Positions 35,316 through 49,094 of a stretch of DNA of 64,000 nt are shown here, piece by piece (position 1 is the stretch's first letter; each line of letters begins with the position of its first letter). The notes beneath the pieces are model-generated. The model was not told the origin of the DNA. It was given only the letters and a program-made list of their open reading frames with translations, and did no database searches. Origin of the DNA: Gammaproteobacteria bacterium (GTDB taxonomy: Bacteria; Pseudomonadota; Gammaproteobacteria; Coxiellales; Coxiellaceae); NCBI GenBank assembly GCA_023266215.1, contig JAHFRQ010000004.1, forward strand, positions 1-64,000. The letters are read 5' to 3'. The translations under genes and the position numbers were made by a program.

Positions 35316-35324
35316 AGAGGGGTG

Positions 35325-36077
35325 ATGAGCGATTTAGTGATGGATGCAATATTAGATGAGCTAGAAGAAAGAAGCGGGTATTATTTAGGACTTTCTTTTC
35401 TGGATCATGAATTAAATATGGTAAGGGAGCTTATAAGAGCGCAATGGTTGGATAATATTAAGCTACACGCACCAGGGCACTGGGAAAAATTTTCTGATCT
35501 GCCTATCACAAAGTATCACGAATTTTCACATTTACTAGATCATGCTGCATTATGGCCAAAGATCAATAGAATTTTGCCGCAAAATGCGGTTGAGTTAATT
35601 CGATCAACGTCTATTATCAAAAAACTTCAAGACCTGTATGGCGATTTTACAATATCAGATGAGGAAAATGTTGGTCGTGAGGAAATATATTGGCGACTGG
35701 TTCGACCCAATCAGTCATTAGACGTGGGCCCCTTACATGCTGACGCCTGGTTTTGGGAATTAGATCATGGGTTAACTCCAGAGGGTGTCAAGCGCGTTAA
35801 AGTTTGGATTGCACTTTACTGCGAGCCAGGCCTAAATGGCCTGCGCGTTGTCCCTGAGTCACAGAAAAAAAACTGGAAATATCACGGAGAATATCGCGAT
35901 GGTTTTTCAAAACCACAGATTGATGAAGATGAATCAACACTAAATGTTAAGCTTGCCAATACCAAATCAGGTGACGCAATTATTTTTAATGACAAGTTAC
36001 TGCATGGCGGTGCATTAAATAATGGCCAATTCACGCGCGTTAGCTTAGAATTTACAATGTTTGTAAAAAACAATTAA
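35325..36077 (+). CDS. PhyH-like Fe(II)/2-oxoglutarate dioxygenase, first copy
   Basis: 250-residue protein with the non-haem iron triad of phytanoyl-CoA dioxygenase-like proteins: HADA (HxD, His138 and Asp140) in VGPLHADAWFW, a distal His in DKLLHGGAL and the 2-oxoglutarate-binding Arg in FTRVSLEF. It shares many blocks with the gene at 38658-39413 (WRLVRPNQ, CEPGLNGL, KPQIDEDE), so the two are paralogues. The substrate is unknown; context suggests hydroxylation of a sugar or of a lipid-linked precursor. Ribosome site GAGAGGGG lies close to the ATG. Confidence 0.82.
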   Translation: MSDLVMDAILDELEERSGYYLGLSFLDHELNMVRELIRAQWLDNIKLHAPGHWEKFSDLPITKYHEFSHLLDHAALWPKINRILPQNAVELIRSTSIIKKLQDLYGDFTISDEENVGREEIYWRLVRPNQSLDVGPLHADAWFWELDHGLTPEGVKRVKVWIALYCEPGLNGLRVVPESQKKNWKYHGEYRDGFSKPQIDEDESTLNVKLANTKSGDAIIFNDKLLHGGALNNGQFTRVSLEFTMFVKNN

Positions 36078-36091
36078 ACGGATGATTGAAC

Positions 36092-36718
36092 ATGGACTGT
36101 CTTGAACTCGAGAAAATTAAAACTAAAACCGATCATATTGCCCTGCACTCTAGTATTACGCTTTTTTCTAATATTATTATTGATTCAAAAATTACAACAC
36201 TGTTACACGAGATTTTGCTGACCCAACAGGGTTTAAATTTAATAATCAATATGTTAATTCAGTGCCGCAATCAAAATGGCGCGGTCTATATTGTCGGCAA
36301 TGGCGGCAGTGCTGCGATTGCAAGTCACGCAACGATTGATTTTTTAAATATGGCAAAAATGAAAGCAACTGCCATGCTGGATTCTGCCGTCACAACGTGT
36401 ATATCAAATGATTATGGCTATGAATATGTTTATTCCAAACAGCTTGAAAAATTTATTGGCCCGCAAGATGTATTAATTGCCATTAGTAGTTCAGGACAGT
36501 CTAAAAATATTATAAATGCAGTAAATATTGCAAAAAAAAATGATGCAAAAGTGATAACTTTAAGCGGATTTCAAGATAATAATCCACTGCGCCAAATCGG
36601 GCATTATAATTTATGGCTTAATTCAATAGATTATGGGCAAGTTGAAATTGGCCATGCATTTATATTGCATTATTTAACGGATCGTTTGCGAGAAAGCTTG
36701 ATTGAGGAGATGGCATGA
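36092..36718 (+). CDS. SIS-domain isomerase, GmhA-like
   Basis: Sugar isomerase-type protein of about 208 residues, resembling sedoheptulose-7-phosphate isomerase (GmhA). It shows the nucleotide/sugar-phosphate binding VGNGGSAAIASHA, SSSGQSKNI and a C-terminal GHAFILHYLTD helix. The longer TTG start two codons upstream is possible. Its stop overlaps the next gene (ATGA). Presence suggests a heptose or other keto-aldose phosphate step in this locus; the exact substrate is not determined. Confidence 0.85.
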   Translation: MDCLELEKIKTKTDHIALHSSITLFSNIIIDSKITTLLHEILLTQQGLNLIINMLIQCRNQNGAVYIVGNGGSAAIASHATIDFLNMAKMKATAMLDSAVTTCISNDYGYEYVYSKQLEKFIGPQDVLIAISSSGQSKNIINAVNIAKKNDAKVITLSGFQDNNPLRQIGHYNLWLNSIDYGQVEIGHAFILHYLTDRLRESLIEEMA

Positions 36719-37656
36719 AAATTTTAGTAACCGGTGGCTGTGGCTATAAAGGCAGCGTTTTAGTACCCAAATTATTAAAAAAAAATTATAAAATAATTGT
36801 TGTGGACACACAATGGTTTGGCAATTATTTAAAACCACATGAGAATTTAACTATTTTAAAAGCAGATGTTCGCGAGCCTAATTCAAATTGGTTTGACAAT
36901 ACTGACGCCATTATTCATTTGGCTTCTGTGTCTAATGATCCGTGTTCTGATTTAAATCCGAAATTAAGCTGGGAAATTGGACCGCTCTCTACCATGCGAT
37001 TAGTTGAAATGGCCATTGCTCATCAAGTAAAGCAATTTATTTATGCTTCATCGGGCAGCGTTTATGGTGTCAATGATTCACCCAAAGTGACGGAAGACTT
37101 GCCGCTTTCCCCTTTAACAGAATATAACAAAACAAAAATGGTGACAGAACGTGTTTTGTTAAGCTATCAAGATAAAATTATTACACAAATAGTAAGACCC
37201 GCAACGGTTTGTGGTTATTCAGAGAGAATGCGCTTAGATGTTTCTGTGAATATGATGACAATACAGGCTTTAACGAATAATGTTATGACTGTTTTTGGCG
37301 GCGATCAAGTGCGCCCCAATATTCATATTGATGATATTACCGATCTTTATTTATTTTTATTAGAACATAAAAATATCACGGGTATCTATAATGCCGGCTT
37401 TGAAAATTTATCGATTTTAGCTATTGCACAATTGGTGCAAAAATATGTCAAAGCAGACATAAAAATCACACCATCCAACGACCCCAGATCATATCGATTA
37501 TGCGCTGATAAATTATTAAAAACTGATTTTAGACCTAAAAAAACAGTTGAAAATGCAATTCAAGAAATGGTTGCGCAATTCCAATCTGGCTTTTTAAAGA
37601 ATGAAGAGCGTTTTTACAATTTGAAAACGATGAAAAATACTGGGGTAGGTGTTTGA
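36715..37656 (+). CDS. NAD-dependent sugar epimerase/dehydratase (extended SDR)
   Basis: 313 residues, Rossmann motif VTGGCGYKGS near the N-terminus, SSGSVYG and the catalytic YNKTK, as in UDP-sugar 4-epimerases and related reductases. The start overlaps the SIS gene and the stop overlaps the next SDR gene, so the three are tightly coupled. Substrate unknown. Confidence 0.88.
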   Translation: MKILVTGGCGYKGSVLVPKLLKKNYKIIVVDTQWFGNYLKPHENLTILKADVREPNSNWFDNTDAIIHLASVSNDPCSDLNPKLSWEIGPLSTMRLVEMAIAHQVKQFIYASSGSVYGVNDSPKVTEDLPLSPLTEYNKTKMVTERVLLSYQDKIITQIVRPATVCGYSERMRLDVSVNMMTIQALTNNVMTVFGGDQVRPNIHIDDITDLYLFLLEHKNITGIYNAGFENLSILAIAQLVQKYVKADIKITPSNDPRSYRLCADKLLKTDFRPKKTVENAIQEMVAQFQSGFLKNEERFYNLKTMKNTGVGV

Positions 37657-38639
37657 AATATTTAGTGTTGGGTAGTAACTCATTTGCAGGCGCCGCATTT
37701 GTTAATAATTTATTAGCAGAAGAACACAGCGTTGTGGGCGTGAGTCGTTCAGCTGAGCCCGATGCGCTTTTGTTATCCTATGCCAACAATAAAAATAAAA
37801 AATTATTTAGATTTTATCAATATGATATTAATTTACATTTTCTAGAAATTATAAAATTAATTAATGAATACAAACCAAATTATATTATCGATTTTGCAGG
37901 CCAAGGTATGGTTGCAGAAAGCTGGAAAAGTCCTGAAGAGTGGTATCAAACAAACTTTGTTTCAAAAGTGAGATTGCATAATTATTTGAGACAGTGTGAT
38001 TTTTTAGAGCGTTATGTGCGTGTTTCAACACCTGAGGTCTATGGCGGCACAGGAAGTGCTGTTGATGAGACGCAGCCATTTAATCCGTCAACGCCGTATG
38101 CCGTGTCGCATGCGGCTATTGATATGAGCTTACAAGCCTTTTATCGACAGTATCAGTTTCCTGTTATTGTAACCCGTTTCGCCAATTTTTATGGACCGCA
38201 TCAGCAATTATACAGAATTATTCCCAGAACCATTATTTATGGATTACTTGGGAAAAAGTTACAGTTGCATGGTGGCGGCACATCAGAGCGCGCATTTATT
38301 TATGGCGACGATGTTGCAAGCGGCATTAATGCTGCCATTAAAAATGGAACGTGTGGCGAAACTTATCATTTTTCAGCAGGGCAAACAATTTCAATTAAAA
38401 ATTTGGTTAAGTTAATTTGCGAAAGCTTAAGCATTAATTTTGAAGCATTGACAGAAATAGGGCCAGAGCGACCTGGAAAAGATGCGGTTTATTCTATGAA
38501 AACAAACAAATCAGAAGAAAAATTATCTTGGTCACCTAAAATTAATTTAGAAATTGGTGTGAATAAAACAATAGATTGGTTACAAGCTAATATTAACATG
38601 ATTAAAGCATTACCACTGGAATATAAACATAAACCATAG
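37653..38639 (+). CDS. Second NAD-dependent sugar epimerase/dehydratase
   Basis: 328 residues starting with TTG that overlaps the previous stop; GGGGTAGG gives a ribosome site. The dinucleotide motif reads GSNSFAGAAF, then STPEVYGG and GPHQQLYRIIPRT, resembling GDP-mannose or dTDP-glucose 4,6-dehydratase-type SDRs. The usual YxxxK is YAVSH here, so the lysine position carries histidine. This may be a subfamily trait or reduced activity. Confidence 0.85.
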   Translation: MKYLVLGSNSFAGAAFVNNLLAEEHSVVGVSRSAEPDALLLSYANNKNKKLFRFYQYDINLHFLEIIKLINEYKPNYIIDFAGQGMVAESWKSPEEWYQTNFVSKVRLHNYLRQCDFLERYVRVSTPEVYGGTGSAVDETQPFNPSTPYAVSHAAIDMSLQAFYRQYQFPVIVTRFANFYGPHQQLYRIIPRTIIYGLLGKKLQLHGGGTSERAFIYGDDVASGINAAIKNGTCGETYHFSAGQTISIKNLVKLICESLSINFEALTEIGPERPGKDAVYSMKTNKSEEKLSWSPKINLEIGVNKTIDWLQANINMIKALPLEYKHKP

Positions 38640-38657: not shown

Positions 38658-39413
38658 ATGAGCAAAAATTTTGTTACGTCAAAAGTGGATAGTCAGCTTG
38701 AGGAAGGTCGTGGATATTATCTAGGATTTTGCTTTCAAAAAAGTGAATTACAGGAGGTGCTTGGTTTTATTCATGAGCAATGGCTAGGTAGAATCAAAGA
38801 AAAGTGCCCTCAGCATTGGAAAGAATTTTCTAATGCTGGCATCACAAGGTACCATGAATTTGCCCATCTTTTAGATCATGGATCGACTTGGACGAAGGAT
38901 GCGCGGATTTTTCCAAAAAATATTGCAGATAAAATCAGAAAAATGTCACTCATCAATGCGCTCGAGGAAGAGTATGGCCCCATTATCATCGCTGATGAAG
39001 AAGGTATTGGCTATGAAGAAATGGATTGGCGCTTGGTAAGGCCCAATCAACCAAATGATATTGGCCCGTTTCATGCAGATGCTTGGTTTCTTGAGTTAGG
39101 ACACGGTATTAAACCGCCTCACAATATGAAAGCCATTAAAGTTTGGGTTGCGCTTTGTTGCGAGCCTGGCCTAAATGGATTAAAAGTAGTGCCAGACTCG
39201 CAAAAAAAATCATGGCGATATCATGGTGAGTTTCGCCATAGCTTTGTAAAACCACAAATTGATGAAGACGAAGCAAATTTACCATCAATTTTGTTAAATA
39301 CTAAGCCCGGTGAGGCTGTGTTGTTTCATGATAAGTTATTACATGCAGGCGCATTGAATAAGGGAAAATATACACGCGTCAGTATGGAATTTATGATATT
39401 TGTAAATAAATAA
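38658..39413 (+). CDS. PhyH-like Fe(II)/2-oxoglutarate dioxygenase, second copy
   Basis: 251 residues, paralogue of the gene at 35325-36077. Iron ligands HADA (His139, Asp141) in IGPFHADAWF, distal His229 in DKLLHAGAL and Arg240 in YTRVSMEF. Both copies sit in the same operon with four other sugar genes between them, which points to duplication and perhaps two successive hydroxylations. It is 18 bases after the SDR gene. Confidence 0.82.
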   Translation: MSKNFVTSKVDSQLEEGRGYYLGFCFQKSELQEVLGFIHEQWLGRIKEKCPQHWKEFSNAGITRYHEFAHLLDHGSTWTKDARIFPKNIADKIRKMSLINALEEEYGPIIIADEEGIGYEEMDWRLVRPNQPNDIGPFHADAWFLELGHGIKPPHNMKAIKVWVALCCEPGLNGLKVVPDSQKKSWRYHGEFRHSFVKPQIDEDEANLPSILLNTKPGEAVLFHDKLLHAGALNKGKYTRVSMEFMIFVNK

Positions 39414-39414
39414 A

Positions 39415-40572
39415 ATGGATGGTTTTATGACAGTTGCAAATTTTTTACCAGAACAATACAAGCAAGACAGCCAATTAAAAATTAATCATAATTATTTGTC
39501 ACTACAATTTTCAGATTGCGATATTATTTTAGAAAAAATTAAAAAAGTAGTATTAAATAATGATTTTACATTAGGGGCCGCTGTTAATGCATTTGAAGCG
39601 CGCTTCAAAAATCTAATTCATGCAAAGCATGCCATAGGCGTTGGCAGTGGCACAGACGCCTTATTTTTAAGCTTAAAGGCACTGGGTATCAAAGAGGGTG
39701 ATGAGATTATTACAACCCCCTTTACATTTTATGCAACCATTGGCGCGATTGTCACAGCTGGCGCAAAGCCTGTTTTTGCAGACATATTGCCTGACTATAA
39801 TATTGACCCAGAGAAAATAGCTGAAAAAATTACCGCAAAAACAAAGGCTATTTTACCAGTGCATTGGGCAGGCAAGCCTTGCCACATGGATGAAATAAAT
39901 TTAATTGCTAAAAATAATAATTTATTTGTAATCGAAGATGCCTGTCATGCTATCTGTGCAACGTATAATAATAAATTTGCAGGTACATTGGGCGATATAG
40001 GTTGTTTTAGCTTTCATCCCTTGAAGAATTTAAATGTGTGGGGAGACGGCGGGATTATTACTACTAATTCAGATGAGCTTGCTAATAAATTAAATTTAAT
40101 GCGAAATCATGGTCTAAAAGGTAGAGACGAGTGCGTGTTGTTTTCCTATAATTCACGTCTTGATACAATTCAGGCAGTGGTGGCAGATCATTTATTATCA
40201 AAGCTTGATCACATAACTGAATCTAGAATTCGGCATGCCAATTATTTAGATCAAGGCTTAAAATCAATTCCAGAAATTAAAATCCCCCACAGAGAAAATA
40301 ATATTAAGCAAGTATATCATTTATACTCTATTTTAGCTGAAAATCGAGACGAATTAAAAAATTACTTAATAGAAAACGGCGTTGATGCCAAAGTGCATTA
40401 TCCTATTCCCATGCACTTACAGCCCGCTGCACATTATTTAAATTACAAGCTAGGTGATTTCCCGAATGCAGAGCGCGTTTGCTCAAAAACAGTCTCATTG
40501 CCAGTACATGAATTTATTACTCAAGAAGAATTGGATTATATGATTAATTTAATTAAAGAGTTTTATTTATGA
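39415..40572 (+). CDS. DegT/DnrJ/EryC1/StrS sugar aminotransferase, copy 1
   Basis: PLP-dependent enzyme that would convert a keto-sugar nucleotide to an amino sugar. 385 residues: GVGSGTDALFLSLKALG near residue 75, VIEDACHAI (about 172-180), and the PLP lysine Lys204 in FHPLKN. An ATG 12 bases downstream is an alternative start. It overlaps the next aminotransferase by four bases. Confidence 0.92.
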   Translation: MDGFMTVANFLPEQYKQDSQLKINHNYLSLQFSDCDIILEKIKKVVLNNDFTLGAAVNAFEARFKNLIHAKHAIGVGSGTDALFLSLKALGIKEGDEIITTPFTFYATIGAIVTAGAKPVFADILPDYNIDPEKIAEKITAKTKAILPVHWAGKPCHMDEINLIAKNNNLFVIEDACHAICATYNNKFAGTLGDIGCFSFHPLKNLNVWGDGGIITTNSDELANKLNLMRNHGLKGRDECVLFSYNSRLDTIQAVVADHLLSKLDHITESRIRHANYLDQGLKSIPEIKIPHRENNIKQVYHLYSILAENRDELKNYLIENGVDAKVHYPIPMHLQPAAHYLNYKLGDFPNAERVCSKTVSLPVHEFITQEELDYMINLIKEFYL

Positions 40573-41696
40573 GTGTAATGATAGAAAATAAATTAACTGT
40601 ACCCTTCGTTGATTTCAAAAAAAGATATCAGTTACAAAGAGATGAAATTCTACAAGGTGTCGATGCTGTTTTTTTCTCTGGAAATTATATTTTGGGAAAT
40701 TTTACAGAAGATTTAGAACGTGAATTATCAAATTTTTTAAACACACCTTATGTTCTAACGCTTGCCAACGGCACGGATGCCATTATTTTATCATTAAAAA
40801 TTTTGGAAATTGGCGCAGGGGATGAGGTGATTATACCCGTTAATTCCTTTGTGGCATCAGCCGGTGCTGTTGCAGCAGTGAATGCAAAACCTGTTTTTTG
40901 TGATATCAGAGATGATTTAAATATCGATGTTACAAAAATTCAAGCATTAATCACACCAAATACTAAAGCCATTATGCCAGTGCATTTAACGGGCCGACCT
41001 GCTGATATGAAAGCAATTATGAAAATTGCCAAAGAAAATAACTTATTTGTTATTGAGGATGCTGCACAATCTATTGGCGCTACCGTTGATGGAAGGCAAA
41101 CAGGAACAATAGGTGATTTTGGTTGTTTTAGTTTGCATCCCCTGAAAAATTTACACGCCTATGGCGATGGCGGCATTATTGCAACTAATAACAAAGCATA
41201 TTATGAAAAATTAAAATTACTCAGAAATCATGGGCTAATTAATCGCGATGTTTGTCAAGAATGGGGCTTAAACTCAAGACTTGATAGCGTTCAAGCAAAA
41301 ATAGTTTCATTAGGCTTGCAGCATTTAAATCAATGGAATTTGCAACGTCGAGAGAATGCTTTTAAATACCAATCAGCATTAAAAAATAGCGTTACTGTCC
41401 CAGTTGATTTAGATAATATCTATGCCGTTTATCACAATTTCGTTATTTTAACCGATAGACGCGATGCATTAGCTGAATATCTAAAAGACAATGGCATTGA
41501 TACCCGAGTGCATTACCCTATTCCTATTCATTTGCAACCTGCTGCCAAAAGCTTGGGCTATAAGTTGGGAGATTTTCCTGTTGCAGAAAGATGCGCAAAG
41601 CAAATGCTAAGCTTGCCTATTTATCCTGAGCTAGCAGATGATGCTATCGAATATGTGATTTTAAAAATAAATGAGTTTTTTAATAGAGAACAATAA
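40569..41696 (+). CDS. DegT/DnrJ/EryC1/StrS sugar aminotransferase, copy 2
   Basis: 375 residues, clearly related to the preceding gene: NGTDAIILSLK, VIEDAAQSIGA, PLP lysine Lys193 in LHPLKN, and HYPIPIHLQPAA near the C-terminus. The two are adjacent and overlapping, a tandem pair that probably arose by duplication. Two aminotransferases of this type imply two amino positions or two sugars. Confidence 0.92.
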   Translation: MSVMIENKLTVPFVDFKKRYQLQRDEILQGVDAVFFSGNYILGNFTEDLERELSNFLNTPYVLTLANGTDAIILSLKILEIGAGDEVIIPVNSFVASAGAVAAVNAKPVFCDIRDDLNIDVTKIQALITPNTKAIMPVHLTGRPADMKAIMKIAKENNLFVIEDAAQSIGATVDGRQTGTIGDFGCFSLHPLKNLHAYGDGGIIATNNKAYYEKLKLLRNHGLINRDVCQEWGLNSRLDSVQAKIVSLGLQHLNQWNLQRRENAFKYQSALKNSVTVPVDLDNIYAVYHNFVILTDRRDALAEYLKDNGIDTRVHYPIPIHLQPAAKSLGYKLGDFPVAERCAKQMLSLPIYPELADDAIEYVILKINEFFNREQ

Positions 41697-42928: not shown

Positions 42929-43738
42929 ATGACGGATTTTACAGGGATTTTTGAAAATGGATACAGCATCATAGATTTTAGTAATACAAGGTGTATCAGG
43001 CTTATTCAAGATCAAATTAAATTACTATTCAAATCAGACCCCATTGAATTTCATCAAAAAGAAATGGAAGATGAACAGCGTTTAAATTTAATAAAGCAGG
43101 CGCAGGATAGATTGACAGAAACAGATATAGTTAAAAATTTACTGTCGGATAATTCAGAATGTATCAAGAGTTTGATTGGACCTGATGTAGATATTCAAAC
43201 AGGTCTTTATTTAAGAGTCTCAAGACCCAACATTGAAGGTGACTTGATTGATTGGCATCGTGATACATTTTATGGCAATTCACACTGGGAGCTTAACTTT
43301 TGGCTTCCCATTTTTCCGTTAGAAGAGGGCGCTGGGTTGATGCTTGCTGAAGGATCGCACCTGATATCGCCAAATAACGTCCATTATATTCAAGATAAGA
43401 ACTTATTTCGTCAGCAAGTAACAAAAGGATCTGTTGCAAGTCAGCTCGGTTTTCAATATGCTCCCAAATCAGAGGAGGCAATAACTCACATGGATATGTC
43501 GACAGTAAGATTAATAAGACCGAAAGTTGGGCAAGCTGTTCTTTTTTTCGGGCATATCGTTCACCGAGCGCAAAATTTTTCTGCCAAAACAAGAGTTAGC
43601 ATCGATGTTCGCATAAAGCATATGCTGGCTCCTACCAGTACGAAAGCGGGGTATTACCAGCCATTGTTTCGAAGCGAAATTACGCGCTGTATAGAAAAAA
43701 TGAATTTAATAGAAAAGGGAGTTTTTTGTGGAAATTAA
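42929..43738 (+). CDS. PhyH-like Fe(II)/2-oxoglutarate dioxygenase, third copy
   Basis: 269 residues, more distant from the two other copies. The iron motif is WHRDTF (His110, Asp112), with a distal His in FGHIVHRAQNF (His209 or His212) and Arg222 in KTRVSIDVR. PLEEGAGLMLAEGSH is a typical PhyH double-stranded helix segment. The coding end overlaps the next gene by 11 bases. Confidence 0.75.
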   Translation: MTDFTGIFENGYSIIDFSNTRCIRLIQDQIKLLFKSDPIEFHQKEMEDEQRLNLIKQAQDRLTETDIVKNLLSDNSECIKSLIGPDVDIQTGLYLRVSRPNIEGDLIDWHRDTFYGNSHWELNFWLPIFPLEEGAGLMLAEGSHLISPNNVHYIQDKNLFRQQVTKGSVASQLGFQYAPKSEEAITHMDMSTVRLIRPKVGQAVLFFGHIVHRAQNFSAKTRVSIDVRIKHMLAPTSTKAGYYQPLFRSEITRCIEKMNLIEKGVFCGN

Positions 43739-44381
43739 TTTAATGAAAAACTACCCACGCGTCAATCGAAATGTCACCGAACGCGCTCAAACAAAAACAG
43801 CTGAAGACAAGCGCATTGCTCAACAATTTGGAAAAGCCTTTTTTGATGGGACACGTGATCAGGGCTACGGCGGTTTTAATTATAATCCGAAATATTGGGA
43901 ACCGGTGGTTCCTGACTTTCAAAAACACTATGATTTAAGCAGTAAAAGCAGCGTTTTAGATATTGGTTGCGCCAAAGGATTTATGTTGCATGACATGGCA
44001 AGATTAATTCCTGATATTAATATCAAGGGGATTGATATTTCTGAATACGCTATTAATAATGCGATTGAAGCAGTGAAACCTTATTGCCAAGTGGCTTGTG
44101 CGACTAATTTGCCTTTTCCTGATCATAGTTTTGATTGTGTGATATCTATTACAACTTTGCACAATTTAGAAAAACCAGCATTAATTAAAGCGCTTCAAGA
44201 AATTGAAAGAGTAAAACGACAACATAGTTTTATTACAGTGGACGCTTATCATGATGATGCAGAAAAACAGCGCATGGAAGCCTGGAATCTAACAGCAAAA
44301 ACTGTATTACACGTCGATGAATGGAAAAAATTATTTCACGACGCAGGTTATACAGGCGATTACTATTGGTTTATACCATGA
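43728..44381 (+). CDS. Class I SAM-dependent methyltransferase
   Basis: 217 residues, GTG start at 43728 with GGGAG nine bases upstream. The SAM-binding motif VLDIGCAKGFML and a following GIDISEYA acidic residue are clear, and FDCVISITTLHNLEKP resembles motif II. Acceptor unknown; context suggests sugar O-, N- or C-methylation. Overlaps the E1-alpha gene by four bases. Confidence 0.88.
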   Translation: MEINLMKNYPRVNRNVTERAQTKTAEDKRIAQQFGKAFFDGTRDQGYGGFNYNPKYWEPVVPDFQKHYDLSSKSSVLDIGCAKGFMLHDMARLIPDINIKGIDISEYAINNAIEAVKPYCQVACATNLPFPDHSFDCVISITTLHNLEKPALIKALQEIERVKRQHSFITVDAYHDDAEKQRMEAWNLTAKTVLHVDEWKKLFHDAGYTGDYYWFIP

Positions 44382-45382
44382 TAATAGACAGCATAGATAA
44401 AAACGAAAAAATAGATTTATTGCACAGTATGCTGCGCATTCGCCTAATTGAAGAAGCGATTGCAGAAAATTATGGCCAGCAAAAAATGCGAACACCCGTG
44501 CATTTATCGATTGGACAAGAGGCCGCGGCTAGCGCTGCAGGATTTGCGCTTCGAAAAACAGATTATGCTGTCAGCGGACATCGCGCTCACGCACATTATT
44601 TGGCAAAGGGCGGAAATCTTAACGCCATGATTGCTGAAATTCACGGTAAAGTCACAGGCTGCTGTCGCGGTCGAGGCGGCTCAATGCATTTGATTGATCA
44701 ATCTGTTGGATTTATGGGAAGCACTGCAATTGTAGGCAATACGATTCCCATTGGCGTGGGTTTAGGGCTGTCTATTCAACTCAGTGGCGATGATCGTATA
44801 GCTTGCATTTTTTTAGGCGATGGCGCTATTGAAGAAGGCGTATTTTATGAGTCACTTAATTTTGCGGTGTTAAAAAATCTACCCGTATTATTTATTTGCG
44901 AAAATAATTTATATTCTGTTTATACGCCATTGCATAAACGTCAGCCCATTCATCGCAAGATTTTTGAGTTGGCACGTGCCATGGGCGCACATTCAGATTG
45001 TGTTGAAGCAGGTTATGATGTACTGGCTTGCGCTGAATCACTTGCTAAAATGGCTGAAAAAGTGCGTTTAAAGCAGGGTGTGGGCTTTGTAGAAATTTAT
45101 ACGTATCGTTATCGCGAGCATTGCGGCCCTCATTATGACAATGATATTGGTTATCGCGCTATTTCAGAATATGAAGCGTGGCTCAAAAAAGATTCTGTTA
45201 TTACTTTTCAGAAAAAATTGCTTCAAGACAATATTCTTACCGAATTAGATTTAGAAAAAATAAATCTTGATATTCAAAAAGAAATAAAATCAGCATTTGA
45301 ATTTGCAGAGCACTCTGCTTTTCCAGATAAAAATGAAGCATTAACAGAAGAATATCAAATGGAATCACTATGCGTCAGTTAA
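44378..45382 (+). CDS. Thiamine-diphosphate dehydrogenase E1 component, alpha subunit
   Basis: 334 residues; ATG at 44378 overlaps the preceding stop (ATGA). The TPP motif starts GDGAIEEG (147-) and ends ENN (Asn176, Asn177). GHRAHAHYLAKG and the RGRGGSMH segment also match the family. Pairs with the beta subunit directly downstream. E2 and E3 genes are absent here, so it is not a normal 2-oxoacid dehydrogenase complex. Confidence 0.92.
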   Translation: MIIDSIDKNEKIDLLHSMLRIRLIEEAIAENYGQQKMRTPVHLSIGQEAAASAAGFALRKTDYAVSGHRAHAHYLAKGGNLNAMIAEIHGKVTGCCRGRGGSMHLIDQSVGFMGSTAIVGNTIPIGVGLGLSIQLSGDDRIACIFLGDGAIEEGVFYESLNFAVLKNLPVLFICENNLYSVYTPLHKRQPIHRKIFELARAMGAHSDCVEAGYDVLACAESLAKMAEKVRLKQGVGFVEIYTYRYREHCGPHYDNDIGYRAISEYEAWLKKDSVITFQKKLLQDNILTELDLEKINLDIQKEIKSAFEFAEHSAFPDKNEALTEEYQMESLCVS

Positions 45383-46416
45383 CATTTACAGCCGCCATCA
45401 ATGAAGCAATGCATATTGCGATGCAAGAAAATAATAAATTGGTATGTTATGGCTTAGGAACAGATGATCCCAAAAGCATTTTTGGCACAACCGATAATTT
45501 ACAGCAACAATTTGGTGAGGCACGTGTATTTGATATGCCTACTTCTGAAAATGCCATGACAGGCGTTGCGGTAGGCTTAGCCTTGGGCGGATATCCTTCT
45601 GTGATGTCTCATCAGAGACTCGATTTTTTCTTATTAGCAATGGACCAATTGGTGAATTCTGCGGCAAAATGGCACTATATGTTCGGTTCTCAAAATTCAG
45701 TGCCCATCGTTATTCGACTCATCATGGGTCGTGGTTGGGGACAGGGTCCGACGCATTCGCAAAATCTACAATCTTGGTTTGCGCATATTCCAGGCTTAAA
45801 AGTGGTGTCGCCTACTTCGGCTTATGACGCAAAAGGCTTGTTGCTATCTAGCATTCGTGACCAAAACCCCGTTGTATTTTTAGAGCATCGTTGGTTGCAC
45901 AACAGTGTCAGTGATGTGCCAGCAGATGATTATGAAATTGAATTAGGCAAAGCTAAAATTGTTCGAGCAGGCTGTGATATTTCGCTCGTTGGCATGTCTT
46001 ATATGGTGGTTGAAGCGATGCGTGCAGCAGATCATTTAGCAAAATTTAACATTGATTGCGAAGTGATTGATATCAGAACCATTCGACCACTTGATTCTGA
46101 GACTATCTTTAATTCAGTTAGAAAAACAAAGCGTATATTGGCATTAGATACGAGCCAGCCAATGTGTTCAGTTGCCAGTGAAATTATTTCTCGTGTGAGC
46201 TGCCAATTATTTTCTGATTTAAAATGCGCGCCACAATTAATAGCCAATCCCGACAATCCAGAACCTACTAGCTTTGGTTTGACCAGACATTATCATCCAA
46301 CTGCACAGGATATTGTTGAGCGTGTTTCCAAGATGTTAAATATAACAATTCCAGCCATGATTTTATCTTCAACGCCGCACGATGTGCCGGGTGACTGGTT
46401 TAAGGGGCCATTTTAA
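45370..46416 (+). CDS. Thiamine-diphosphate dehydrogenase E1 component, beta subunit
   Basis: 348 residues with the transketolase-like pyrimidine domain (TSENAMTGVAVGLALGGYPSV), FGSQNSVPIVIRLIMG and a C-terminal transketolase domain (EVIDIRTIRPLDSETI). Overlaps the alpha gene by 13 bases and the next dehydrogenase by one. Probably forms an alpha2-beta2 enzyme that decarboxylates a 2-oxoacid and transfers the acyl or hydroxyalkyl group, possibly to a sugar. Confidence 0.92.
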   Translation: MRQLTFTAAINEAMHIAMQENNKLVCYGLGTDDPKSIFGTTDNLQQQFGEARVFDMPTSENAMTGVAVGLALGGYPSVMSHQRLDFFLLAMDQLVNSAAKWHYMFGSQNSVPIVIRLIMGRGWGQGPTHSQNLQSWFAHIPGLKVVSPTSAYDAKGLLLSSIRDQNPVVFLEHRWLHNSVSDVPADDYEIELGKAKIVRAGCDISLVGMSYMVVEAMRAADHLAKFNIDCEVIDIRTIRPLDSETIFNSVRKTKRILALDTSQPMCSVASEIISRVSCQLFSDLKCAPQLIANPDNPEPTSFGLTRHYHPTAQDIVERVSKMLNITIPAMILSSTPHDVPGDWFKGPF

Positions 46417-47453
46417 TGATTACAGCTGCGGTATTAATAAAACAAAACAGGCCGTTGGAAATTTTAAATAATATTTTATTTCCGATATTAAATAGGGGAC
46501 AGGTATTAGTTAAAATTAACTTTGCAGGATTATGCCACAGTCAATTAATGGAAATAAGTGGAGAGCGCGGCGAAGATAAATATCTACCCCATTTATTAGG
46601 GCATGAAGGTGTTGGCAAAGTCGTCGAAATTGGCGAAGGAGTTACCAAAGTAAAAAAGGACGATGAAGTGATTTTGGGCTGGATTAAGGCCGAAGGCTTA
46701 GAAGGTGGCAGTTCACAATATCACACGACAGAGGGAATAATCATTAATTCAGGCGCCGTCACTACTTTTAGTGATTATGCGGTTGTGTCTGAAAATAGAT
46801 TAATTAAAAAGCCCAAGCATACTCCAAGTGAACTAGCCGTGTTGTATGGCTGCGCTATTCCAACCGGTTTGGGAATGGTGTTAAATGCCGTGCCCCATAA
46901 TTTTAACGGGACTATTTGTTTTGTAGGATTAGGTGGCATTGGATTAAGTGCTTTGTTATCAGCAAAATTAAGAAATTTTTCAAAAATTATTGCAATTGAT
47001 GTCAATCCCGAAAAATTAGCTTTAGCAAAAGAATTGGGCGCAACGCATGTGATTAATCCTCTAAAACAAAACACACATCAAGAAATAAAAAACTTAACCG
47101 ATAATATAGGCGTTGATTTTTGTTTTGAATCAGCAGGCTCTACGAAAACAATTGAGCTTGCATTTGAAATAATAAAGCGCGGTGGCGGACAATGTATTTT
47201 TGCATCCCATCCTGCTGCCGGTGAAAAAATTGCGTTAGATCCATTTGAATTAATCTCTGGAAAAAATATTCGCGGCACGTGGGGCGGTGAATCTATCCCC
47301 GATCAAGATATTCAACAATTTGATCAATACTTTAAAGAAAATTTATTGCCGCTGAATAAATTAATCAGTAAAAAATATGATTTAGAAAATATTAATCAAG
47401 CAATCGACGATCTAAAAAACAAAAAAATTGCACGGGCGTTGGTGAGATGTTGA
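46416..47453 (+). CDS. Zinc-dependent alcohol dehydrogenase family protein
   Basis: 345 residues with the catalytic-zinc motifs GLCHSQ and GHEGVGKVVEIG and the Rossmann GLGGIGLSALLSAKL. The four-cysteine structural zinc lobe is missing, as in some family branches. It follows the E1 pair directly, so it may reduce or oxidise the E1 product. Substrate unknown. Confidence 0.88.
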   Translation: MITAAVLIKQNRPLEILNNILFPILNRGQVLVKINFAGLCHSQLMEISGERGEDKYLPHLLGHEGVGKVVEIGEGVTKVKKDDEVILGWIKAEGLEGGSSQYHTTEGIIINSGAVTTFSDYAVVSENRLIKKPKHTPSELAVLYGCAIPTGLGMVLNAVPHNFNGTICFVGLGGIGLSALLSAKLRNFSKIIAIDVNPEKLALAKELGATHVINPLKQNTHQEIKNLTDNIGVDFCFESAGSTKTIELAFEIIKRGGGQCIFASHPAAGEKIALDPFELISGKNIRGTWGGESIPDQDIQQFDQYFKENLLPLNKLISKKYDLENINQAIDDLKNKKIARALVRC

Positions 47454-48004
47454 TAAATACAGAAAAGATGAAACAAGAAACACCCGAGGTTTACTATCTG
47501 GTCGATGCATCGCCCTGCCTTGAGAAAAATGATTTTGATCTGCTGGTTAATCTTGCATTTAAAAGTACAAGAAAAAGAGCAAGATATTGCGCACATAAAA
47601 ATAAAGACAGTGATTTGCATGATATGTTTGAAGTATTTACAAATAATACATATATGAGACCGTTAAAGCAGATATCTAAAACTTATTCTTTTCATATTAT
47701 TCATGGTTGTGTCGATGTTTATTTATTCTCAGATGATGGCGACATTATTGAGGTAGTTTCTCTGGGTGATTTCCAATCTGGAAAGAGTTTTTATTTTCGA
47801 CCCCCGGAAAATACTTACCGCACGCTGATTACCAATACAGAATTTGTCATTTATCATGAGGCTACAACAGGTCCATTTAGAAAAGAAGACACTATTTTTG
47901 CACCTTGGGCACCGAGAGAAGATGATATTGGTGGAATACGTAATTTTTATATGCAATTAAAGCGAGAAGAAGCAAATGCAAAAAGTAAGTTTTTTAGATC
48001 TTAG
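47447..48004 (+). CDS. WbuC-like cupin-fold protein lacking usual histidines
   Basis: 185 residues with the WbuC layout: SLHDMFEVF-like region (DSDLHDMFEVF), a beta core (VDVYLFSDDGDIIEVVSLGDF) and the closing EATTGPFRK and APWAPRED. In WbuC proteins the metal site reads PHRH; here the same place reads RPLKQ, and the later His position is within PPENTYRTL, so metal binding may be lost. Overlaps the dehydrogenase by seven bases and DegT copy 3 by 29. Confidence 0.7.
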   Translation: MLINTEKMKQETPEVYYLVDASPCLEKNDFDLLVNLAFKSTRKRARYCAHKNKDSDLHDMFEVFTNNTYMRPLKQISKTYSFHIIHGCVDVYLFSDDGDIIEVVSLGDFQSGKSFYFRPPENTYRTLITNTEFVIYHEATTGPFRKEDTIFAPWAPREDDIGGIRNFYMQLKREEANAKSKFFRS

Positions 48005-49094
48005 AATAAGCAATGAAAATGAAAAAAAGGTTTTGTTGAAATCAATTGAAAATGTTTTTGACCACGGCCGATTTATTTTAGGCCCTGAAGTAGAGTTGTT
48101 TGAAAATAAGTTTGCGCGTCTCTGCAATAAAAAATATGGTATTAGCGTTAATTCAGGTACAGACGCACTTTTTTTGCTATTTAAAGCGCTTGGAATAGGG
48201 CCCGGTGATGAAGTGATCACAACCGCTTTGTCATGGATAGCTACAGCCAATGCAATTGCATTAACAGGAGCTACGCCTGTATTTGCTGATATTCGGGATG
48301 ATTTAAACATTGATCCAGACAGTGTAACAAAATTAATTAATTCAAAAACGAAAGCATTGTTACCAGTCCATTACTGTGGCAGAGTCTGTGATATGTCAGC
48401 CATTTTAAGCATAGCGAAACAATATAAATTACTGGTAATTGAGGACGCATCTCAAGCTGTTGGGTCAAGTTTTGATGGCAAAACACCCGGATCGTTTGGT
48501 GATTATGCTTGCTTTAGTTTAAACCCAATGAAAGTATTTGCTGCTTGTGGTGAAGCGGGCATAGTCGTTGCAGATTCAGAGATGATCGCCGAAAAATTAT
48601 GTGCATTACGCTATAACGGCATGATTGAAAGAGAGATATGTATGGAGCCAAGTATTAATAGCAGATTAGATACTATTCAAGCAGCAGTACTGTTGGAGCG
48701 CTTGTCTTATATTGAAAATATTGTGAAAAAGAGGCGTCAAATTGCAGATTTTTATCATGAGAATTTGTCAGGATATGTGATTATACCGGTTGAAGGTACG
48801 CATGAATACAATAATTATTATACTTATACTATTCGCACAGGTAATCGAAATGCCTTAATGACTTTCCTTGCAGAAAAGGGGGTAGAAACTAAAATACATC
48901 ATCGATATTTAATGTCACAACAAAGACCTTATCAAAATTTTACTTATGAGAAACCATTGGTCGCAGAAAGAATTGTGGAAGAAATTTTAAGTTTACCCTG
49001 TCATGAGAAAATGACATTTAATCAGGTTGAATATGTTTGTGATTGTATTACGCAGTTTTCGCACCAATATTCAGAAAATAAAAATTTAGTGTAG
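47976..49094 (+). CDS. DegT/DnrJ/EryC1/StrS sugar aminotransferase, copy 3
   Basis: 372 residues: VNSGTDALFLLFKALG, VIEDASQAVGS, PLP lysine Lys186 in SLNPMK, and a HHRYLMSQQ segment where copies 1 and 2 have HYPIP. It is less close to copies 1 and 2 than they are to each other. It begins inside the WbuC-like gene. Likely adds an amino group to a keto-sugar nucleotide made elsewhere in the cluster. Confidence 0.9.
   Translation: MQKVSFLDLRISNENEKKVLLKSIENVFDHGRFILGPEVELFENKFARLCNKKYGISVNSGTDALFLLFKALGIGPGDEVITTALSWIATANAIALTGATPVFADIRDDLNIDPDSVTKLINSKTKALLPVHYCGRVCDMSAILSIAKQYKLLVIEDASQAVGSSFDGKTPGSFGDYACFSLNPMKVFAACGEAGIVVADSEMIAEKLCALRYNGMIEREICMEPSINSRLDTIQAAVLLERLSYIENIVKKRRQIADFYHENLSGYVIIPVEGTHEYNNYYTYTIRTGNRNALMTFLAEKGVETKIHHRYLMSQQRPYQNFTYEKPLVAERIVEEILSLPCHEKMTFNQVEYVCDCITQFSHQYSENKNLV

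Follow-up and report, generated by a model that had tools for sequence, protein, structure and literature searches.

Which reaction do the E1-alpha and E1-beta subunits of a thiamine diphosphate (ThDP) enzyme carry out when they are encoded among polysaccharide genes? The question arises from a stretch of 64,000 nucleotides from a gammaproteobacterium of the Coxiellaceae (GenBank assembly GCA_023266215.1, contig JAHFRQ010000004.1, positions 1 to 64,000, forward strand), referred to as the window in the following. Here E1-alpha, E1-beta and a zinc-type medium-chain dehydrogenase (MDR) constitute an overlapping operon inside a polysaccharide locus, as seen from the open reading frames (ORFs) on the + strand. 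We consider it likely that the pair is an E2-independent ThDP carboligase, which would move a two-carbon (C2) unit to a nucleotide keto-sugar as part of a surface-sugar cassette. The gene content, its conservation, the absence of E2 nearby and the interchange with a transketolase were seen directly.

The E1 pair and the E2 question

Both subunits contain the ThDP motifs ascribed to them by the original prediction, as alignments place GDG...NN in E1-alpha and glutamate E60, presumably the ThDP glutamate, in E1-beta. The Pfam matches are E1_dh (PF00676, 4.8e-56) for E1-alpha, and Transket_pyr (PF02779, 5e-31) and Transketolase_C (PF02780, 6e-29) for E1-beta; overlapping ORFs with such low family E-values are not chance. 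The fold and the ThDP motifs are shared with the E1 of pyruvate and branched-chain 2-oxoacid dehydrogenases (closest PDB entries 3duf and 1w85). The window pair differs from these in having no E2 partner, an extra C-terminal tail, a different alpha loop, and scores under the curated cut-offs for pyruvate dehydrogenase (PDH) E1 (alpha, TIGR03182, 282.2 versus 393.85 bits; beta, NF006667, 294.1 versus 321 bits).

A search for E2 (PF00198) gave no match on the contig that holds the window (C1), which agrees with the earlier claim of an orphan pair, and found three places in the whole 2.14-Mb genome. By names read from the translations, SucB adjoins SucA (contig C20), AceF adjoins AceE and Lpd (C5), and a further lipoyl E2 (C20) is separated by about 5 kb from another E1-alpha/beta pair, which is accompanied by a leucine-dehydrogenase-like gene. 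All three E2s thus have another E1 nearby, which answers the check proposed with the original prediction. As every E2 that was located has an E1 of its own close by, a housekeeping role was rejected as the main explanation.

To look beyond this genome, relatives were taken from an E1-beta alignment scan of a named genome collection. The best 80 of at least 452 confirmed relatives gave 80 loci (L063-L142), many of them from metagenome bins, which were grouped by gene family clustering. E2 occurs in none of these 80 loci, and the same search recovered E2 in five out of five positive-control loci; an E3-like match is present in one locus (L097). A C-terminal GPF end of E1-beta is found in 79 of the 80 clade I relatives, the exception (L079) being a broken frame, and this conserved extension starts at the point up to which PDH E1-beta proteins of known structure can be matched. 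The loop after the active-site histidine of E1-alpha reads EHCGP in most of clade I and EHVGP in other GPF-tailed lineages. The E2-linked E1s that we examined possess a different alpha loop and lack the clade I beta tail. A set of 29 loci taken from the class search, many of them short stretches, contains eight with the GPF tail, four with E2 and none with both. In an AlphaFold2 monomer model of E1-beta (mean pLDDT, the model's confidence score, 88) the tail is unplaced, with a pLDDT of about 65.

At a threshold of E <= 1e-60, E1-alpha occurs in 28 out of 369 genomes of the class. List and tree together include Pseudomonadota, Cyanobacteriota, Campylobacterota, Spirochaetota, Planctomycetota, Chloroflexota, Bdellovibrionota, Nitrospirota and other phyla. 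In L064, on a contig binned as Verrucomicrobia, E1-beta is 85% identical to that of this gammaproteobacterial-type locus, which is due to either a recent transfer or a binning error. Clade II pairs (L052-L056) have no tail, no E2 and partly different neighbours, and we do not claim them as the same cassette. Genome G016 contains a second, distant E1-alpha/E1-beta pair (L047 3059-4321 and 6536-7669; 42 and 37% identity) approximately 10 kb from its clade I pair. A Streptomyces griseofuscus plasmid (L145 12989-15035) has an E1 pair with a beta subunit ending in GPY amid acyl carrier protein, condensation-domain and ketosynthase genes, and this is not a sugar locus. Five distant viral matches were found as well.

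Exchange of the E1 pair for a split transketolase

The cassette was then approached from another gene. We chose as bait GDH, a dehydratase-like short-chain dehydrogenase/reductase (SDR) encoded upstream of the pair, instead of E1, because selection on E1 was to be avoided. The bait set comprises 11 genomes, namely eight of the 369 genomes of the class, and G440, G782 and G797 from further searches of 398, 78, 53 and 40 genomes, which in part repeat genomes covered before. All 11 GDH cassettes contain a ThDP-dependent C2-transferase: four have E1-alpha/beta (G000, G016, G332, G782) and seven have a split transketolase, TktN/TktC (G359, G166, G213, G239, G070, G440, G797), with both in none and neither in none. 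The gene order is similar, as for example in G239 (SDR1-GmhA-GDH-TktN-TktC-two genes-MT-MDR) and G782 (SDR1-GmhA-GDH-HldE-E1a-E1b-c9-MT-MDR), where SDR1 is a second SDR, MT a methyltransferase and c9 a gene family described below. MDR is present in six of the seven split-transketolase cassettes; G440 shows neither MT nor MDR.

On the GDH tree the label "E1" or "transketolase" needs six changes (bootstrap 5-7), at least three of which are forced by well-supported branches, compared to a mean of 6.8 changes for shuffled labels. The label is therefore hardly clustered on the tree, and the observations suggest that E1 and split transketolase were swapped repeatedly. As the partners are kept while the E1 pair and the transketolase are exchanged, the cassette most likely needs a ThDP-bound C2 unit for a carbon-carbon bond and not for acylation of an E2. 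Control glycan loci baited with PseB (the top 20 of 35 PseB places other than the genome's own) contain E1 in two out of 20 cases, one of them cut within E1-alpha, and split transketolase in none of the 20.

The two enzyme types are distinct at the domain level, since TktN of L164 matches PF00456 (Transketolase_N) and the window E1-alpha matches PF00676 only. Besides its split transketolase, genome G359 encodes, on a separate contig, an E1 pair of a different kind with a GPF tail. In three cassettes examined (L161, L162, L164) a short HAD-like protein, assigned by reading, and an APH-like kinase are encoded next to the transketolase; perhaps they handle a phosphorylated donor or acceptor.

The polysaccharide locus and the proposed reaction

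The plus-strand run of overlapping genes consists of MT, E1-alpha, E1-beta, MDR, a WbuC cupin (47447-48004) and a DegT aminotransferase (47976-49094), and the start codon of E1-alpha (ATG, 44378) shares an ATGA overlap with the stop of the methyltransferase gene. A GmhA-like isomerase, SDR1, GDH, two further DegT enzymes and two PhyH-like oxygenases are encoded 5' of this run, and a pseudaminic-acid-type gene set 3' of it. The features are:

36086..36718, +, GmhA-like SIS isomerase (NCBIfam gmhA 91 bits, under the cut-off of 209; SIS_2 domain)
36715..37656, +, SDR1, homologue of a Cj1427-like nucleotide-heptose 4-dehydrogenase (PDB 6vo6, 1.5e-33)
37653..38639, +, GDH, dehydratase-like SDR and cassette marker gene (TIGR01181 197 bits, under the cut-off)
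39415..40572, +, DegT-type aminotransferase 1, in a variable slot
40569..41696, +, DegT-type aminotransferase 2, in a variable slot
43728..44381, +, class I S-adenosylmethionine-dependent methyltransferase (MT), overlapping the E1-alpha start (Pfam Methyltransf_31/25/11)
44378..45382, +, E1-alpha, ThDP-binding subunit, 334 amino acids
44816..44908, +, ThDP/Mg motif GDG...ENN of E1-alpha (alignments)
45116..45145, +, E1-alpha loop EHCGPHYDND beside the active-site histidine
45370..46416, +, E1-beta, 348 amino acids
46342..46413, +, C-terminal extension of E1-beta, ending DVPGDWFKGPF, beyond the region matched by PDH E1-beta 3duf/1w85
46416..47453, +, MDR, zinc-type medium-chain dehydrogenase

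The same partners recur in the 80 related loci. Counts are lower bounds owing to the longest-ORF caller (E1-beta was recovered in 75 of the 80 in which tblastn detects it), to cut contigs, and to loci of which 45 out of 80 reach 20 kb. MT and GDH were counted in 55 loci each, SDR1 in 51, an HldE-like kinase/nucleotidyltransferase (family c8 or c12) in 49, MDR in 45, GmhA in 44, a nucleotidyltransferase (c7) in 29, c9, a ThDP enzyme resembling acetolactate synthase (ALS) and YerE, in 28, and DegT in 25. Of the 69 loci in which an ORF was called before E1-alpha, 49 have MT as this immediate neighbour, and in 15 loci MDR is the next gene 3' of E1-beta. The window's HldE-like gene (c12 type) is located at contig positions 72196-73734, 8 kb past the window end in the same polysaccharide region. 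A similar order, judged by record names, is found on an Azospirillum oryzae plasmid: PfkB kinase, SIS protein, SDR, E1-alpha, transketolase C-terminal protein and two DegT. The c9 gene (often accompanied by an SDR, c11, and an FkbM methyltransferase, c13) and DegT share just two of the 80 loci, and the two sets look like alternative later steps.

Further observations concern the surroundings. The PhyH-like oxygenase genes (35322-36077 and 38658-39413; 57% identical) flank GmhA, SDR1 and GDH on both sides, and PhyH-type genes appear again in 10 of the 80 loci. For the gene at 42929-43738 the label "sporadic carbohydrate cluster oxygenase" was dropped (TIGR04324, 69.8 bits versus a cut-off of 150); this family type is rare, occurring in three of the 80 loci plus the window. 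Between 49101 and 56235 lie the pseudaminic-acid-type genes, with PseB, PseC and PseF over their cut-offs, a NeuB family member and a PseG-like protein assigned by reading; PseH was not identified among them, and an ATP-grasp-like protein and a KduI/IolB-like cupin are inserted. Promoter and terminator counts were within one standard deviation of shuffled sequence.

Judged by homology only, SDR1 and GDH are the candidate keto-sugar-forming enzymes encoded beside the E1 pair. The sole PDB match of SDR1 under 1e-20 is 6vo6, which we take to be the structure of Cj1427, and the Ser/Tyr/Lys motif is retained across the SDR1 family. Passages of PMC10680097 describe that Cj1427 oxidises GDP-heptose at C4 to the nucleotide 4-keto-heptose, the NADH being recycled with alpha-ketoglutarate. 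A keto-heptose is thus a reasonable candidate for the acceptor. GDH is similar to dTDP-glucose 4,6-dehydratases and has the signature STPEVYG...YxxxR/H/K in 56 sequences. The usual lysine of YxxxK is replaced in most of them (R in 33, H in 18, K retained in five of the 56), and G166 has Q, with the Tyr and Glu fixed. The reaction of GDH may differ from that of a 4,6-dehydratase.

From this we infer the reaction, its donor and acceptor, the branch position and the order of the later steps. A GmhA-like isomerase and an HldE-like kinase/nucleotidyltransferase would provide an activated heptose, on which the Cj1427-like SDR1 would create the ketone, so that the acceptor is probably a 4-keto-heptose. 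Decarboxylation of a 2-oxoacid by E1-alpha/beta, pyruvate being the most likely one, would yield an acyl-anion equivalent, whose C2 unit would then be joined to the ketone of the nucleotide sugar, leaving a C-acetyl branch and a tertiary alcohol. The unit would be acetyl with E1 and pyruvate, and hydroxyacetyl with transketolase. The product might be reduced or rearranged by the zinc dehydrogenase or GDH (reduction of the new branch by the zinc dehydrogenase is plausible), methylated by MT and, in the window's variant, aminated by the DegT enzymes.

Several observations weigh against this proposal. The active-site histidine typical of normal complexes is still present in E1-alpha. No GDH turned up in 25 of the 80 E1 loci, and in the 28 that encode the ALS/YerE-like c9 enzyme, branching could be the work of c9. 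Among the 80 loci selected by E1, five (L074, L075, L090, L095, L122) hold E1-alpha/beta together with both transketolase subunits, and L082 has TktN alone beside E1; because the two systems coexist in these five, strict alternation is limited to the GDH-baited set. Within that set some cassettes show few of the partners over the length searched (G016 has only GDH and E1; G332 and G359 have no SDR1 or GmhA), several transketolase placements on the GDH tree depend on weak forks, and the genomes are few and not independent. The likeness to the antibiotic pairs AviB1/B2, Pau11/12 and KbDH, discussed below, was drawn from gene type and context.

The main rival is chain extension of an aldose phosphate, because it is compatible with the swap too, although we consider it unlikely. 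In the manner of DXS or transketolase, the ThDP enzyme would add a C2 unit to the aldose phosphate, and GmhA would isomerise the resulting ketose phosphate to a long-chain sugar. This is equally consistent with the interchange with a split transketolase; in addition, a GmhA-like isomerase belongs to the cassette, and models of DXS and transketolase match the E1 subunits weakly. On chemical grounds, however, pyruvate would give a 1-deoxyketose, which an aldose-ketose isomerase would be unable to convert to an aldose. Moreover, the known GmhA substrate, sedoheptulose 7-phosphate, is already supplied by ordinary transketolase, and no role would be left for the ketone-forming SDR1.

A spare E1 that serves one of the lipoyl E2s of the cell, for the supply of acetyl- or acyl-CoA, is very improbable. 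While the three E2 genes elsewhere in the genome, the standard fold and the ThDP motifs would permit it, each of those E2s has another E1 close by, E2 is missing from all 80 related loci, the scores stay under the PDH cut-offs (282 versus 394 bits for alpha, 294 versus 321 for beta), and the conserved tail and loop are absent from the E2-linked E1s examined. The chance is slimmer again that the pair is a decarboxylase whose released aldehyde is reduced or oxidised by the zinc dehydrogenase to a small acyl or alkyl decoration with no sugar branch, since the position of that gene directly after E1-beta in the window and in the 15 loci fits, but the transketolase replacement and the recurrent keto-sugar-type SDRs would stay unexplained and MDR accompanies transketolase as well (six of seven cassettes).

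Returning to the transfer of a C2 unit to a keto-sugar, a wider proposal can be put forward tentatively, with the odds somewhat against it. A family of E1-alpha/beta carboligases that work without E2 and have so far gone unrecognised could make C2-branched heptoses, i.e. nine-carbon sugars, for surface glycans across many phyla, with marine SAR11, Prochlorococcus and Chloroflexota lineages among them; its repeated replacement by split transketolase would turn an acetyl branch into a hydroxyacetyl one in one cassette. If so, many genes labelled as parts of pyruvate dehydrogenase or transketolase really make surface sugars, and the cassette would predict carriers of unusual branched higher sugars. 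The natural swap of two ThDP superfamilies in one gene set would provide a ready-made comparison for ketone acceptance.

Comparison with known systems

In the literature searched, to which subscription journals mostly do not belong, we found no published description of E1-alpha/beta in surface-glycan loci. A term search of the main text of a Leptospira rfb paper (PMC13111663) gave no mention of E1 or transketolase genes, and the passages seen of an Arcobacter paper (PMC5495459) mention only the ordinary E1. Enzymes of this kind are known; what appears to be new is the surface-glycan family, together with its heptose-type cassette, the tail and the swap that has occurred in nature.

The c9 proteins are ALS-like, with 8rph, presumably JanthE, as best PDB match, and no c9 gene was found in the window or the next 19 kb. 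According to passages of a 2025 review (PMC12247030), the branching of sugars in lipopolysaccharide (LPS) is assigned to YerE-like enzymes, and YerE, ErwE and JanthE are ThDP carboligases that branch keto-sugars in LPS. YerE-like enzymes belong to the single-chain decarboxylase superfamily; the window pair has E1_dh and Transket_pyr/Transketolase_C on two chains, and this domain architecture rules out homology to YerE. The original prediction had likened the pair to yersiniose-type pathways. Its core idea, an E2-less E1 pair that places a C2 unit on a keto-sugar, fits all findings, and two things strengthen it, the interchange with split transketolase and the E1-like pairs published for the sugars of avilamycin, paulomycin and kibdelomycin; the likeness to yersiniose holds for the function only.

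In the Campylobacter capsule heptose modification, carried out by Cj1427 and its partners, Cj1427 itself is homologous to SDR1 through 6vo6, and the parts of the source seen do not describe a ThDP enzyme. The split-gene transketolases of miharamycin and amipurimycin are proposed to transfer a two-carbon hydroxyacetyl unit to a keto-sugar; 13 split-transketolase sequences of a survey are all from Streptomycetes and none is characterised in vitro, as stated in portions of the same review (PMC12247030). This type fills the E1 slot in seven of the 11 GDH cassettes and is not the window's enzyme.

The closest parallel is offered by the aKADH2 pairs, namely AviB1/AviB2, Pau11/12, KbDH-alpha/beta of kibdelomycin and EvdU5/EvdS3, which likewise are E1-alpha/beta-like pairs without E2 in a sugar cluster and for which a C2 branch from pyruvate was shown or proposed. 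Sections of the review describe that aKADH2 pairs put acetyl branches from pyruvate on keto-sugars, and that ligation to a ketone was observed in vitro for KbDH (PMC12247030). E1-like pairs for C2-branched sugars are also reported in excerpts on paulomycin (Pau11/12, equal to Plm8/9) and avilamycin (AviB1/B2) (PMC4425429, PMC4802897), and an excerpt on everninomicin places the E1-like pair EvdU5/EvdS3 in a sugar gene cluster (PMC10338323). These pairs act on antibiotic sugars of actinomycetes, whereas the family of the window is found in surface-glycan loci with heptose-type genes.

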